Source of the DNA: an uncultured Pelagibacteraceae bacterium
GTDB taxonomy: Bacteria > Pseudomonadota > Alphaproteobacteria > Pelagibacterales > Pelagibacteraceae
Assembly (NCBI GenBank): GCA_902531455.1
Contig: CACAEM010000008.1
Span: 1 to 21,830, forward strand
Reading direction: 5' to 3'
Length of the DNA: 21,830 nucleotides
The notes below the pieces were generated by a model. The model searched no databases and was not told the DNA's origin. It was given only the letters and a program-made list of their open reading frames with translations. Shown in pieces: positions 6,561-11,578 of this stretch. The position numbers and the translations under genes are program-made. Positions within the stretch are counted from its first letter, which is position 1; every line of letters starts with the position of its first letter.

Positions 6561-7130
6561 TTATTTTTTCTGTTCTTGATTTTCTTTCAGTTCTTCAGTT
6601 TTCGCAGTTTCTGCTTTAACTTCTTCTTTTGTAGCTTCTGCTTTAACTTCCTCTTTTGGAGCTTCTGATTTAACTTCTTCTTTTGGAGCTTCTGTTTGAG
6701 GATCAGTTGATGGCATTACGTTTTCCTCAGTAACTTCATTAATTTTAGTTTCTAAATCAATACCAATCGTCTTCTTAATCTTTTCAGCTATTCTAGCAGA
6801 TTTACCAGTTCTATCTCTTAGATAGTATAATTTTGCTCTTCTTACTTTTCCTGATCTTACAACTTTTATTGTATCTACAATTGGGCTATATAATGCAAAA
6901 GTTCTTTCTACTCCCTCACCAAAAGAAATTTTTCTAACAGTAAAAGATGAATTGATGTCTCTACTCTTTTTTGCGATACATACACCTTCAAAATATTGAA
7001 TTCTGTCTCTTTTACCCTCTGTTATCCTAACCCCAACTTTAACGATGTCTCCAGGGAAAAAATCAGGATGTTTTCTTTCAGAAATAATCTTGTTTAAATT
7101 TGATCTGTTTATTTCTTCAATATTTTTCAT
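6561..7130 (-). CDS. rplS: 50S ribosomal protein L19 with charged C-terminal repeat tail
   Basis: Ribosomal protein L19 sits at the 30S-50S interface. Residues 1 to about 120 contain the whole conserved fold, including [29 protein letters not shown] and [19 protein letters not shown]. Bacterial L19 is usually about 115-130 residues; this one has 189, because about 70 residues of low-complexity Ala/Glu/Lys/Pro sequence follow the core. The tail repeats a unit close to EAPKEEVK and resembles the tail of S16 two genes upstream. The start ATG follows the trmD stop by one base (TAA, A, ATG), so translation is likely coupled. Confidence 0.95.
6564..6695 (-). repeat. Tandem [12 protein letters not shown] repeats encoding the L19 tail
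   Basis: Imperfect tandem units of about 8-10 codons (E-A-P-K-E-E-V-K and variants) fill the last 40-odd codons of rplS. An 18-base stretch at 6669-6686 is identical to 7919-7936 in the rpsP tail, in the same orientation. Confidence 0.8.
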
Positions 7131-7131
7131 T

Positions 7132-7815
7132 TTAATTTTTCTTATATTTTTGCCACAAGTCTGGTCTTCGGTCGCGTGTTATAGCCTCAGATTGGGATAA
7201 ACGCCAGTCTTTAATTTTGGCATGATCACCTGAAATTAGCACATTTGGGACCTTTTTTTCCTCCCAAACTTGAGGTTTTGTGAATTGCGGATATTCAAGA
7301 AGGCCATTCTCAAAACTCTCATCTCTTGAGGAATTAATATTACCTAGAATTCCTGGAATAAATCTTAGAATAGAGTCTGTTACAACAAATGCAGCAACTT
7401 CACCCCCTGACAATATAAAGTCACCAATGCTGATCTCTTCAATATCTCTACTTTCTAGTATTCTCTCATCTACTCCTTCGAAGTGTCCACAAATTAGATT
7501 GATTGTTTTTTCATTCGAAAACTCCCTTGCAAGTTTAGAATTAAATACTTTTCCTCTTGGACTTAAATAGAGGGTTTTTTCTTTAGCCTTGATATTTGCA
7601 TCTAATGAATTTGCCAATACATCTGCTTTCATAATCATTCCATTTCCTCCACCATAAGGAGTGTCGTCAACAGTTTTATGTTTATCTAAAGCATAATCTC
7701 TTATGTTTACTGTTTCTAAATCCCATTCTTTTCCTTTTGACTTTCCAAAAAGGCCTTTGCTCAAATAACCAGGAAAATATTCAGGATACAACGTAAATAC
7801 TCTTGACAAAAACAT
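7132..7815 (-). CDS. trmD: tRNA (guanine-N1-)-methyltransferase (G37)
   Basis: TrmD (227 residues from this start) transfers a methyl group from SAM to N1 of G37 in tRNAs with G at position 36, preventing +1 frameshifting. It is a SPOUT knotted-fold enzyme. Visible: N-terminal [23 protein letters not shown], the cofactor knot [13 protein letters not shown] and [14 protein letters not shown], and the C-terminal [10 protein letters not shown]. The open frame continues upstream through the rpsP tail because the repeats are open in other frames. The true start is the ATG at 7815, four bases after the rpsP stop, since [12 protein letters not shown] matches the family N-terminus and the upstream residues are a K/Q-rich frame shadow. 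Confidence 0.95.
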
Positions 7816-7819
7816 TATT

Positions 7820-8305
7820 CTATTTAGCTTCTTCCTTCGTAGCTTCTGTTTTAGCTTCTTCTTTTGGTGCCTCTGCTTTTGGCTCTTCTGTTTTAGCTTC
7901 TTCCTTTGGAGCTTCTGTTTTAACTTCTTCTTTTGGTGCCTCTTGTTTTGGTGCTTCTGTTTTAGGAGCATCTGCTTTAGCTTCGCCACCCTCTTCAGTT
8001 TTCTTTCTATCTTTTTTTGGAATTGCTTTTTGAGGATTATTACCTTTTGCTGGCATAGGCATAATCTCATTTTCTCCTAATAATCTTGCAACCCTAGTTG
8101 TTGGTTGTGCCCCTTGACCAAGCCAATACTTAACTCTCTCAACATCTAATCCCATTCTTTCTTTTTTTTCTCTCGGAATTAGAGGATTAAAAAAACCTAA
8201 TTTTTCTATAAACCTTCCATCTCTTGGAAATCTACTATCAGCAACCACTATCTTATAAACTGGTCTCTTCTTAGTTCCTCCCATTGATAAACGCATTTTT
8301 AACAT
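7820..8305 (-). CDS. rpsP: 30S ribosomal protein S16 with charged C-terminal repeat tail
   Basis: Ribosomal protein S16 is an early 30S assembly protein. Residues 1 to about 82 match the whole family: [36 protein letters not shown] and the [12 protein letters not shown] segment. The protein has 161 residues against a usual 80-90. Most of the excess, from about residue 103, is a Lys/Glu/Ala/Pro repeat tail with units such as EAPKEEAKT, similar to that of L19. A clear Shine-Dalgarno AGGAG lies five bases before the ATG and supports this start. The gene follows ffh by 12 bases. Confidence 0.95.
7823..7999 (-). repeat. Tandem [12 protein letters not shown] repeats encoding the S16 tail
   Basis: Imperfect tandem repeats of about 8-10 codons (E-A-P-K-E-E-[AV]-K-T) encode the last 59 residues of S16. 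They keep other frames open, giving spurious ORFs on both strands. They share short identical blocks with the rplS tail on the other side of trmD. Confidence 0.8.
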
Positions 8306-8317: not shown

Positions 8318-9676
8318 TTATTTTAATTGATTAAAAAGTTCTGGTGGTATGCCTTTATCCAACATCCCTTTTGTATTTCCTTTAGACATTTTTTTCATCA
8401 TTTCTGACATCATCTTAAACTGCTTAAGCAATTTATTGATAGTGGCTACGTCTGTTCCTGAGCCATTAGCAATTCTTTTTTTTCTAGAACCATCAATAAT
8501 CTTAGGGTTTTCACGCTCTTTTTTAGTCATTGATAATATTACTGCTTCGTTTTGAGTAATTATTTTTTCATCCACTCCTGCTTGGTCCATTTGAGATTTA
8601 ACTTTTGAAACACCGGGTAAAAAAGACATTATACCTTCAATACCACCCATTTTTTTCATTTGTCTTAGCTGAGTAAGATAATCCTCTAAAGAGAATTGAC
8701 CTTTTTTTAATTTTTCCTCTGTTTTTTTTAATTTTTCTTCATCTAGATCTACTGCAGCCTTTTCAACAAGGGAAACAATATCTCCCATACCTAAAATTCT
8801 ATTGGCAATTCTGTCTGGGTGAAAAACTTCAAAATTTTCTATCTTCTCACCAACTCCTAAAAATTTAATTGGAACACCTGCAACATATTTCATACTTAAA
8901 GCCGCTCCACCTCTTCCATCACCATCTGATCTTGTAAGAATAATACCTGTCAGATTTACAGTACTTTTAAATTCTTTGGCTACATTAGCTGCTACTTGGC
9001 CAGTTAAAGAATCTGCAACAAGAATTGTTTCTGTCGGGTTTATAATACTTTCAATTTGTTTAATCTCACTCATCATTTGTAAATCAATCTGAGTTCTTCC
9101 AGCTGTATCAAATAAAATTACATCTGCTCCATTAAGATTAGCAGCACTAATCGCTCTTCTACAAATATCTGCAGGAAGTTGGTCTTTGATGACTGGAAGC
9201 GTTAGTATATTATTTTGCTCACCCAAAAGTCTTAGTTGCTCTTGTGCGGCAGGTCTGTAAACGTCTAGACTAGCCATCATAACTTTTTTCTTTTTGTTAG
9301 CCTCTAAAAATCTTGCTAACTTAGCTGTAGTTGTAGTTTTTCCAGAACCCTGTAAACCAACTAACATCACTGCAACAGGAGGAACTGCATTTAATTCAAT
9401 ATCAGAATTTTTATCCCCCAAGAAAGAAATTAACTCATCGTTAACAACTTTAACTACCATCTGTCCAGGTGAAGTAGATCTGACGATCTCTTGACCAAGA
9501 GCTTTAGGTTTCACTCTATTTATAAATTCTTTTACAACTTCTAAAGATACATCCGCTTCTAGTAGAGCAAGCCTAATCTCTCTTAAACCCTCATCTACTT
9601 GCTTTTCATCAAGCGAAGGTGCCTTTTTTAAAGAAGAAAATATTTCTTCAAATTTATTTGTTAAATTTTCAAACAT
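8318..9676 (-). CDS. ffh: Signal recognition particle GTPase Ffh (SRP54)
   Basis: Ffh (452 residues from this start) binds 4.5S RNA and the signal sequences of nascent membrane proteins, then docks with FtsY. It has an N domain (1-90), a G domain with P-loop GLQGSGKTTTTAKLA, DVYRPAAQEQL, DTAGR and TRSDGDGRGGA (the alphaproteobacterial form of the usual TKLDGDARGGA), then a methionine-rich M domain with the RNA-binding IANGSGTD and the run MMSEMMKKMSKG. An upstream ATG at 9700 would add eight residues, but MFENLTNKFEEIF is the family N-terminus, so 9676 is chosen. This is the first gene of the long leftward directon. Its leader is the structured element at 9693-9785, if that is transcribed on this strand. 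Confidence 0.96.
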   Translation of the reverse strand: MFENLTNKFEEIFSSLKKAPSLDEKQVDEGLREIRLALLEADVSLEVVKEFINRVKPKALGQEIVRSTSPGQMVVKVVNDELISFLGDKNSDIELNAVPPVAVMLVGLQGSGKTTTTAKLARFLEANKKKKVMMASLDVYRPAAQEQLRLLGEQNNILTLPVIKDQLPADICRRAISAANLNGADVILFDTAGRTQIDLQMMSEIKQIESIINPTETILVADSLTGQVAANVAKEFKSTVNLTGIILTRSDGDGRGGAALSMKYVAGVPIKFLGVGEKIENFEVFHPDRIANRILGMGDIVSLVEKAAVDLDEEKLKKTEEKLKKGQFSLEDYLTQLRQMKKMGGIEGIMSFLPGVSKVKSQMDQAGVDEKIITQNEAVILSMTKKERENPKIIDGSRKKRIANGSGTDVATINKLLKQFKMMSEMMKKMSKGNTKGMLDKGIPPELFNQLK

Positions 9677-9692
9677 AATCACATCCAGCAAG

Positions 9693-9785
9693 TATCGCAC
9701 CAGTGGGCGAACTCTCGCTGACTGGTGTCGATCTCTTTGTTACCAAAGACACCGCAAATTGCTGTATTTTGCGGAAACAGCGATA
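9693..9785. ncRNA. Candidate structured RNA or leader element between ffh and dapF
   Basis: This 93-base block has 45 G/C (48%) in a genome of roughly 30% GC and codes for nothing I recognise. Self-complementary arms can be read directly. The closing stem pairs TATCGC (9693-9698) with GCGATA (9780-9785). One arm pairs ACCAGT (9699-9704) with ACTGGT (9721-9726), with an inner GCGA/TCGC stem at 9707-9710/9715-9718. A second pairs TCTTTG (9734-9739) with CAAAGA (9744-9749). A third pairs CCGCAAA (9752-9758) with TTTGCGG (9768-9774). Together they form a closed four-way-junction layout. Read on the minus strand, the second arm has a GUAA (GNRA) loop, which favours an ffh leader. On the plus strand it would precede dapF. 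No SRP RNA, tRNA or riboswitch consensus I know fits. Confidence 0.5.
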
Positions 9786-9812
9786 AAATATAATAGAGGT
9801 TCAAAATGTCAA
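9785..9812 (-). promoter_or_regulatory. Candidate promoter for ffh directon
   Basis: On the minus strand, a perfect -35 TTGACA (9812-9807) is followed after 16 bases by TATTTT (9790-9785), four of six -10 positions. Transcription would begin near 9778, so the ffh mRNA would carry a leader of about 100 bases containing most of the structured element. Confidence 0.4.
9789..9794 (+). promoter_or_regulatory. Candidate -10 box for dapF-ftsY
   Basis: A consensus TATAAT lies 42 bases before the dapF ATG. No convincing -35 lies 16-18 bases upstream. Transcription from it would start near 9801, downstream of the structured block, and it overlaps the opposing ffh promoter candidate. Confidence 0.35.
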
Positions 9813-9847
9813 TAAATAAGTTAAATACTGAAGTATATGGAATTTAA
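9806..9847 (+). CDS. Possible 13-codon leader ORF overlapping the dapF start
   Basis: ATG at 9806 opens MSINKLNTEVYGI and stops with TAA at 9845-9847, eleven bases into dapF in another frame. It has a good Shine-Dalgarno (AGAGG, 9795-9799, six-base spacing), whereas the dapF ATG itself has only a weak GAAG. It could be a coupling or leader peptide, or chance. If transcription starts near 9801, the SD would be absent from the mRNA. Confidence 0.2.
   Translation: MSINKLNTEVYGI
9825..9836. repeat. Short inverted repeat just before dapF start
   Basis: ATACT-GA-AGTAT is a perfect 5-base inverted repeat ending directly before the dapF ATG. Its loop is too short for an RNA hairpin, so if it matters it is more likely a protein-binding site. 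It may be chance in AT-rich DNA. Confidence 0.25.
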
Positions 9848-10661
9848 AGCTTTTAAAATGGATGGTCTTGGAAATGATTTTGTAATTATTGATAAAAGGT
9901 CAAATAATGTGGAATTAAACAAGGATCAAATAATTAAAATTTGTGATCGAAACTTTATTGGTTGTGACCAACTAATCTATATTAACAACAGTGATAATGC
10001 TGATGCCAATCTAGAATTTTATAATTCTGATGGTTCGGGATCTGACGCATGTGGAAATGGTACAAGATGTGTGGCCTTCTTATTATCAAAAGAAAAAAAT
10101 ACAAAAAATATTAGCGTTCAAGTAGCATCAAAACAGTTAAATTCAAAATTACTTGATGATGGTCAAGTTGAAACAATAATTGGTGTACCAAGAACTAATT
10201 GGAATGAAATTCCTTTATCTAAAAAACTAGACACTAAAAATTTAGGAATAATTATAGAAGGTAACAATAACCAAGAAGTGAGAGGTGGTATAGCTATTAA
10301 TGTAGGTAATCCTCATACTATTTTTTTTGTTGATAATGTAGAAAATTTCAATTTAGAAAAAATTGGACCTGAGATCGAAAATCATGAACTGTTTCCAGAA
10401 AAATGTAATTTTACTCTTGCTCAAAAATTAAATAAAAATCATTATAAAATCAAAGTTTGGGAAAGAGGCGCAGGTTTAACGAAAGCATGTGGGACTGCTG
10501 CGTGTGCAACAGCAGTGGCTGCAAATTTAGAAAAATTAGAAAATTCTAGAACTGAAATTGAATTCAGTTTAGGAAAATTAATAATTTCTATTGATGAAAG
10601 TCAACAAATTCATATGAAAGGACCTGTATCTAGTATCAGAGAAATAGATATAAATATCTGA
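9837..10661 (+). CDS. dapF: Diaminopimelate epimerase
   Basis: DapF (274 residues, typical) is a cofactor-independent racemase that converts LL- to meso-diaminopimelate for peptidoglycan and lysine synthesis. Both catalytic cysteines are in their conserved settings: SDACGNGTRC in the N-terminal half and KACGTAACATA in the C-terminal half. The N-terminus FKMDGLGNDFVIID and GGIAINVGNPHTIFFV are also characteristic. The stop TGA shares its A with the ftsY ATG (TGATG), so the two genes are translationally coupled. Pairing with ftsY has no obvious metabolic logic. Confidence 0.96.
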   Translation: MEFKAFKMDGLGNDFVIIDKRSNNVELNKDQIIKICDRNFIGCDQLIYINNSDNADANLEFYNSDGSGSDACGNGTRCVAFLLSKEKNTKNISVQVASKQLNSKLLDDGQVETIIGVPRTNWNEIPLSKKLDTKNLGIIIEGNNNQEVRGGIAINVGNPHTIFFVDNVENFNLEKIGPEIENHELFPEKCNFTLAQKLNKNHYKIKVWERGAGLTKACGTAACATAVAANLEKLENSRTEIEFSLGKLIISIDESQQIHMKGPVSSIREIDINI

Positions 10662-11578
10662 TGGGTATTTTCGAAAAGTTTAAATTAGGTTTTAAAAAAA
10701 GTGCTGATAGTATTTCTTCAGGACTTAGAGAAATAATAGTAAAAAAGGAAATTGATGATGAAACATTAAACAAAATAGAGGAATTTTTGATTAGTTCAGA
10801 TGTTGGTATTGACGCTTCAGCTGAAATAAAAAATATTATATCTCAAAAAAAAATTGACCCAAAGAAAAATGCAGTTGAGGAAATAAATTCTATTTTAAAA
10901 GAATATATTTTGGAGTTAATGGTACCTTTAGAAAGAAAAGATTTTTTTGAAAATAAAGAAAATTTAAATGTAACATTAGTTTCTGGTGTAAATGGGGTAG
11001 GTAAGACGACCACCATCGGTAAAATTGGTAAAATATTTAAAGATAACGGCTCAGAAGTAATATTTTCTGCTTGCGATACTTTTAGGGCAGCAGCAATAGA
11101 GCAATTAGAATCTTGGTCTGATAAAATTGGAGCCACAATTATCAAATCAAGTCCAGGGTCTGACCCTGCTTCAGTAGCTTACAAAGCGATAGAACATGCA
11201 AAAAACAACAATATTAGACGGGTACTAATTGATACCGCTGGCAGATTGCAAAATAAGAAAAATTTAATGGATGAATTCAAAAAAATTGCAAATGTTATAA
11301 AAAAAACAGATGAAAGTGCACCCCATGATGTTGTTTTAGTTCTAGATGCAACCTCCGGGCAAAATATAATAAATCAACTTGAAGAATTTGATAAAATTAT
11401 AAAAATTACTGGTTTAATTATGACAAAACTTGATGGAACTGCAAAAGGAGGAGTACTAATTGCAATTTCAAAGAAATACAAGGTTCCAATTTTAGGCCTT
11501 GGACTTGGAGAAAAAGAAGATGATTTAAAAATTTTCAATGCTGAACAATTTGCAGATGCATTTACTCAATTTAATTAA
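10661..11578 (+). CDS. ftsY: Signal recognition particle receptor FtsY
   Basis: FtsY (305 residues) is the membrane-associated GTPase that receives the Ffh-ribosome complex and delivers it to SecYEG. The NG domain is complete: GVNGVGKTTTIGK (P-loop), CDTFRAAAIEQLE, DTAGR, TKLDGTAKGG and the closing GLGEKEDDL. The long acidic A domain of enterobacterial FtsY is absent; only a short N-terminal helix (MGIFEKFKLGFKKS) precedes the NG domain and could bind lipid, as in other short FtsY proteins. It overlaps the end of dapF by one base, and its 3' end overlaps the convergent downstream gene by eight bases. Confidence 0.96.
   Translation: MGIFEKFKLGFKKSADSISSGLREIIVKKEIDDETLNKIEEFLISSDVGIDASAEIKNIISQKKIDPKKNAVEEINSILKEYILELMVPLERKDFFENKENLNVTLVSGVNGVGKTTTIGKIGKIFKDNGSEVIFSACDTFRAAAIEQLESWSDKIGATIIKSSPGSDPASVAYKAIEHAKNNNIRRVLIDTAGRLQNKKNLMDEFKKIANVIKKTDESAPHDVVLVLDATSGQNIINQLEEFDKIIKITGLIMTKLDGTAKGGVLIAISKKYKVPILGLGLGEKEDDLKIFNAEQFADAFTQFN

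Follow-up and report, generated by a model that had tools for sequence, protein, structure and literature searches.

The window analysed here, a stretch of 21,830 nucleotides from an uncultured bacterium of the Pelagibacteraceae, contains a GC-rich block (9693-9785) in an intergenic gap, which is flanked by ffh (ATG at 9676, minus strand) and dapF (starting at 9837 on the plus strand). The question raised by this locus is whether a structured RNA is encoded there and, if so, from which strand it is read and which genes it serves. In an earlier, sequence-only reading of this DNA the block had been taken for an unknown RNA whose three arms and closing stem form a closed four-way junction; the strand was left open, and an ffh leader, a dapF leader and an independent small RNA were offered as options.

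The element in the ffh-dapF gap

The compositional part of that reading was borne out. The GC content of the block is 48.4%, as compared with 31.6% window-wide, and both strands fold far beyond 200 dinucleotide shuffles (z of -5.24 for the plus strand and -4.96 for the minus strand, with none of the 200 shuffles as good in either case). The Rfam search that had been proposed led to the identification of RF01793 ('ffh'), the sole match in the window at the Rfam curated threshold (at 9690-9742 on the minus strand, with 58.7 bits against a gathering score of 35). The shape of this family is present, with a 7-bp stem, a 2x2 bulge containing two conserved C and a 4-bp stem, and the core lies before ffh, the position described for RF01793, ending 21 nt from the ATG. 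According to the passages on this motif in Meyer et al. 2009 (PMC2704228), it was derived from a gap of Pelagibacter ubique ordered ffh motif (-), ffh (-), dapF (+), consists of a single bulged hairpin and is likely to be a cis-regulator of ffh; its detection in a metatranscriptome is cited as well. The folded RNA is genuine, but its core is already in Rfam and the same dapF-ffh gap was listed in 2009; hence the element as such is no discovery, and the designation "unknown" has to be withdrawn.

The likeness to RF01793 comprises the type of locus, the strand and the bulged core hairpin with its two conserved C. The Rfam entry, however, is a single hairpin with a model of 52 positions, whereas conservation extends here over about twice that length, since two hairpins, P2 and P3, are added upstream of the core (P4), and a promoter box accompanies them. 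The conserved structure of the element, its strand, its promoter box and its location ahead of the operon genes are shown by comparison with relatives. Positions 9778 (approximately) to 9677 of the minus strand make up the 5' leader RNA of the operon ffh-rpsP-trmD-rplS, with P2, P3 and the core P4 in a row. In the window the order of this operon is ffh, rpsP (S16), trmD and rplS (L19), so that the ribosomal protein genes follow the leader. The features are listed below.

9807..9812, minus strand: -35 box TTGACA of the leader promoter, from the conservation of TTGAC in relatives
9785..9790, minus strand: likely -10 box TATTTT with a 16-nt spacer (TAGTTT in many relatives), inferred by eye
9752..9774, minus strand: hairpin P2, CCGCAAA...TTTGCGG, outside the Rfam model; covariation, aligned by the model R2
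9730..9753, minus strand: hairpin P3 with a 6-bp stem at 9734-9749, unpaired in the Rfam model; covariation and the sequences of family f41
9698..9727, minus strand: core hairpin P4 (7 bp, C.C mismatch and A.C, 4 bp, loop), within the RF01793 match
9690..9742, minus strand: match to Rfam RF01793 'ffh'
9682..9776, minus strand: whole element, match to R2 (a model of non-SAR11 rows), 75.8 bits, rough E of 1.5e-18
9685..9691, minus strand: TTGCTGG box 3' of the core (GTTTGG in many other leaders), by eye
8318..9676, minus strand: ffh, first gene of the operon (TIGR00959, 574 bits)
7820..8305, minus strand: rpsP (S16; TIGR00002)
7132..7815, minus strand: trmD (TIGR00088 and NF000648 on the ORF 7132-8070; start by eye)
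6561..7130, minus strand: rplS (L19; TIGR01024)
9837..10661, plus strand: dapF, divergent neighbour outside the operon of the leader (TIGR00652)

The structured RNA had been said to lie beside ffh without SRP-RNA features, and this agrees with the search for the bacterial small SRP RNA (RF00169), which returned nothing in 9600-9900 even with E values of up to 10 allowed. The two RNAs have a link in common, in that an SRP protein gene adjoins the present element, but they match neither in sequence nor in structure, and SRP RNA has a separate gene in SAR11 (present in 4 of the 4 genomes searched, in one of them below the family cut-off).

All three arms proposed earlier exist, namely the core/P4 (9698-9727), P3 (9734-9749) and P2 (9752-9774). 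The 6-bp closing stem (9693-9698/9780-9785) is present in the window sequence as well, but it is not conserved: it pairs in 202 of 366 cells, and at least 5 of the 6 pairs are formed in 12 of 62 SAR11 rows. The closed four-way junction was therefore rejected, and three hairpins in a row take its place. As read by eye, the arm at 9780-9785 overlaps the likely -10 box. A looser test of closing pairs gave 4.31 against 3.96 for swapped partners in SAR11 and 4.51 against 4.17 in the class (0 of 200 swaps as high in both), and 4.64 against 4.67 in f41 (132 of 200 swaps as high); this signal was counted as weak, because relatedness can produce such an excess.

Conserved structure, strand and promoter box

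The leaders analysed numbered 87 from SAR11, 78 from the class Alphaproteobacteria and 13 from a family of the PS1/OCS116 type, f41 (71, 78 and 11 distinct ones, respectively); L131, in which no core was found, and one of the 14 f41 loci were left out. The alignment of SAR11 leaders, proposed earlier as a check for compensatory changes, revealed pairs that change on both sides in P2, P3 and the core alike. When 50 distinct SAR11 leaders were aligned with MAFFT alone, 95.8% of the cells were paired (35-49% in slid controls) and 69 cells were double-changed, with 8 of 24 pairs altered on both sides (3/7 in P2, 3/6 in P3 and 2/11 in the core). For P3, the outermost pair considered (columns 32/49) is not formed in 33 of the 50 rows, and further pair types are no more numerous in SAR11 than in shuffles, 177 of 500 of which reach the count. 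RNAalifold returned P2 without P3 on alignment A2 and P3 without P2 on alignment A1; P3 on A2 comes from pair counts for the named structure and not from RNAalifold.

The model built from the SAR11 alignment (R1) matches 87 of 93 loci outside SAR11, and in 85 of these the match spans the full model. In the class-wide alignment A3, 94.9% of the cells are paired and 404 are double-changed, the cells of P2 and P3 being paired at 86-93%, but A3 was fitted to R1, which biases its counts in favour of the structure. As a check, the 65-nt segment upstream of the core was therefore folded on its own, without any model. The mean z was -2.54 in SAR11 (n=55, 40 at -2 or below), -1.72 in f41 (n=11, 4 at -2 or below) and -1.22 in the class (n=78, 20 at -2 or below), as against -0.53, 0.02 and -0.07 in upstream and -0.70, -0.94 and -0.16 in downstream control folds of SAR11, f41 and the class, respectively. 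The contrast in f41 is only modest, since its downstream control is also below shuffles. The opposite strand folds about equally, and the folding test thus does not choose the strand.

The strand, which the earlier reading had left open, is the minus strand, towards ffh. On this strand, G-U cells outnumber A-C cells by 20 to 9 in SAR11 and by 109 to 27 in the class and f41 together (32 to 0 in the class core alone). Furthermore, TTGAC occurs 55-140 nt upstream of the core, 5' of P2 and P3, in 71 of 71 SAR11, 11 of 11 f41 and 76 of 78 class distinct leaders, that is, in 158 of 160, compared with 8, 0 and 6 leaders, respectively, in control windows and 0, 0 and 9 on the opposite strand. The G-U excess and the TTGAC box together argue that the RNA is read towards ffh, from a start estimated at about 9778, and the ffh leader fits best among the three options named before.

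Range of the element and its link to rpsP

RF01793 is present in 81 of 101 SAR11 relatives, with ffh and dapF in all 81 of these loci. The 20 relatives without the motif also lack a full-length ffh (no match in 14, a weak one in 3, FtsY-like by score in 2 and a C-terminal piece in 1), and hence look like assembly gaps. In the class, RF01793 has matches with E of 0.001 or below in 112 of 387 Alphaproteobacteria, and 86 of these exceed its cut-off; besides the nearest genome, 89 of these loci were studied and the 22 weakest were left out. The whole-element model R2, which was built from non-SAR11 rows alone, though aligned via R1, matches 239 of the 387, more than twice as many as RF01793 and over half of the sampled Alphaproteobacteria. 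The E-values of R2 are rough, and position before ffh served as the check on its matches. Among the matches listed, 46 new ones were picked (40 fetched, 5 judged by coordinates and G425 set aside). In 39 of the fetched ones the match lies upstream of ffh and the distance from its end to the ffh start, as estimated by tblastn, is 1-79 nt; the 5 others fit this position by their coordinates. The remaining fetched match, in genome G441 (L278 4673-4754), lies between ffh and rpsP, directly before rpsP; no second copy of the element was found in this 9-kb locus, and P2 and P3 pair poorly in it. Twenty class genomes were listed without RF01793: in 17 of them ffh and rpsP are on one contig and strand, and 2 of the 3 unlinked cases are in assemblies of over 300 contigs. 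R2 matches 11 of the 17 linked and 0 of the 3 unlinked genomes, numbers too small to weigh.

As for the operon, ffh is found in the same locus in 81/81 SAR11 and 84/89 class cases, and the remaining 5 class loci, all of which belong to f41, have rpsP. Among 79 motif-bearing genomes outside SAR11 and f41, 78 have rpsP downstream on the strand of the motif (within 2.3 kb in 73); in the other one rpsP was not found. Since nearly every genome examined has ffh and rpsP linked, only f41 and G441 separate the two genes. In the window, the genes of the two SRP proteins, ffh and ftsY, flank the gap with only dapF between them (8318-11578). There is no room for rimM between rpsP and trmD at 7815-7820, nor in the f41 locus L197, while a rimM-like frame was seen by eye between the two genes in the f41 locus L192.

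The family f41, one of small Alphaproteobacteria, comprises 18 genomes (G140, G246, G327, G395, G457 and G488-G500, with the named loci L195-L206), and an order-level search around it returned the same 18, without a sister family. Its form of the core occurs in 12 records assigned to the OCS116 cluster, the PS1 clade, MED-G09, Rhodobiaceae or Hyphomicrobiales, or unclassified; judging by these clade names, the family is presumably free-living and planktonic. The Ffh/FtsY GTPase domain (PF00448) was over the cut-off in 0 of the 18 genomes, with one weak partial match, and SRP RNA was found in 0 of 18. The same searches detected PF00448 in 14 and SRP RNA in 11 of 14 control genomes, and the absence of SRP RNA is therefore less sure than that of the protein. 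SecY was found in 14 of the 18 genomes, including 6 of 6 good assemblies. Absence in all 18 genomes suggests that SRP was lost before the family split, in which case the structure has been kept without SRP.

RF01793 has been described before ffh, whereas here it is also found ahead of rpsP, in a family where SRP is undetected. The element is kept in 14 of the 18 f41 genomes, with rpsP next to it in 14 of 14 loci and dapF on the other side in 13, the fourteenth being cut by a contig end; the 4 genomes without the motif include one that is 96% complete. In all 13 f41 rows read, the core is completely paired and shows G-C/A-U and C-G/U-A exchanges. In locus L198, the sole one checked in this respect, mtaB lies beyond dapF and neither ffh nor ftsY is present. 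The promoter of the stretch may be part of the reason why the family has kept it.

The apparent absence of the whole SRP from f41 is surprising, and its loss outside symbionts would be remarkable. No report of PS1-clade bacteria without SRP was found in the titles and abstract openings of the open-access papers listed by the searches; passages of PMC7143759 and PMC2881028 address SRP RNA only, and PMC8321541 treats SRP in mitochondria. As far as the open-access literature searched is concerned, the extent of the element, its range and its link to rpsP where SRP is undetected are new.

Possible role of the leader

The C.C mismatch of the core is present in 178 of 178 leaders, and such invariance points to recognition. 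Chances appear about even that the element is a cis-acting leader serving as a feedback sensor for the ribosomal-protein part of the operon. In this scheme S16 (or L19), when in excess over rRNA, would bind the core around the invariant mismatch; either protein would be the natural ligand, because the operon encodes one or the other wherever the element was traced. Together with a following U run, the core could act as an attenuator at which transcription ends as an RNA of about 100 nt. Runs of at least four U come after the core in 31 of the 78 class leaders, as against 4 in a control window, and in 3 of the 11 f41 leaders. With the threshold at three U, the class count rises to 45 (control, 15), while none of the 71 SAR11 leaders has such a run. 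The core is thus terminator-like in many relatives and not in SAR11, where no U run is found, and attenuation cannot be general; in SAR11 the leader would instead act on the translation or stability of the mRNA.

More specifically, the 'ffh motif' may belong to the rpsP-trmD-rplS operon as its feedback leader, S16 or L19 being the putative ligand and ffh a passenger gene; this tentative proposal is given somewhat less than even chances. A passenger role of ffh would explain why f41 has kept the element after losing Ffh, FtsY and SRP RNA. The trmD operon is presented in the relevant part of a 2024 review (PMC10931766) as a rare ribosomal-protein operon without information on its regulation, for which the element is a concrete candidate RNA. 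If the proposal is true, the feedback leader is the sensor missing from accounts of the rpsP-trmD-rplS operon.

A likeness between the leader of a ribosomal protein operon and the rRNA site of the protein is common, not obligatory. Mimicry of SRP RNA and of rRNA was considered for the present leader, and nothing was found in the RF00169 search or in the comparison with E. coli rRNA. No match of R2 to the E. coli rRNA stretch exceeded 10 bits, a simple C.C scan of the E. coli 16S and 23S rRNA was unspecific, and the only likeness to these two rRNAs was the 8-mer GUCAGCGA at 23S 579, possibly a matter of chance. The rpsB and rpsL motifs, as described in the corresponding passages of PMC2704228, are likewise structured leaders heading ribosomal protein operons (here rpsP, rplS), but the present element differs in that no rRNA mimicry was found and its ligand is putative.

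Among the other explanations, that of a ligand-free structural 5' UTR survives best, although it seems unlikely: it would protect the mRNA, fix a rate of early termination or insulate the start site, and the terminator-like core of many lineages speaks for it, but a C.C mismatch kept in every leader exceeds the needs of a mere stem. Autogenous control by Ffh/SRP, in which free Ffh would bind its own leader, echoes the suggestion of the discoverers of the motif and gains from the presence of ffh in the same locus throughout SAR11 and in most class loci, as well as from the argument, put forward in the discussion of the motif in PMC2704228, that RNA-binding proteins can control their own mRNA. 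Nevertheless, the 14 f41 genomes that keep the element before rpsP have neither an Ffh/FtsY domain over the cut-off nor a detectable SRP RNA, and SRP therefore cannot be the only partner of the element; as the leader does not match SRP RNA either, such control is rather improbable.

Slightly less probable still is a trans-acting small RNA made from the leader promoter and freed by termination or processing. Rfam lists RF01793 under the type sRNA, and RNA has been detected at corresponding places: the portions of the respective papers that concern this gap report sm5 from the dapF< ffh> gap of S. meliloti, with a predicted sigma-70 promoter, a predicted Rho-independent terminator and a microarray signal (PMC2573895), and, from Bartonella, an ffh leader RNA (PMC7717549). 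These reported RNAs count for the cis-acting leader as well. RF01793 is also listed for Mesorhizobium huakuii (PMC5596092). In the part of PMC2573895 that deals with it, sm5, which lies in the same gap on the forward strand, is treated as a candidate sRNA unit, and its identity with the present element is by place alone. Against a function in trans stand the position of the element in cis to the same operon wherever checked, the distance of 21 nt, in the window, between its end and the start codon, and the lack of a U run in SAR11. A dapF leader on the plus strand, although this strand folds well too and dapF is present in 81/81 SAR11 loci, is hardly credible, since both the G-U excess and the TTGAC box are on the minus strand and dapF was detected in just 10 of 89 class loci, many of which have only about 300 nt of flank.

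Two minor observations concern the leader of the rpsP-linked operon itself. P3 has a possible base GGU/AUC, the two G of which (9752-9753) also end the 3' arm of P2, and an overlap of this kind was seen by eye in other leaders too (CCGGUCC...GGAUC); through the shared G, the leader might switch from P2 to an extended P3 and back. Finally, conservation includes the short box 3' of the core, which reads TTGCTGG in SAR11 and GTTTGG in many other leaders and lies at a variable distance from the start codon.
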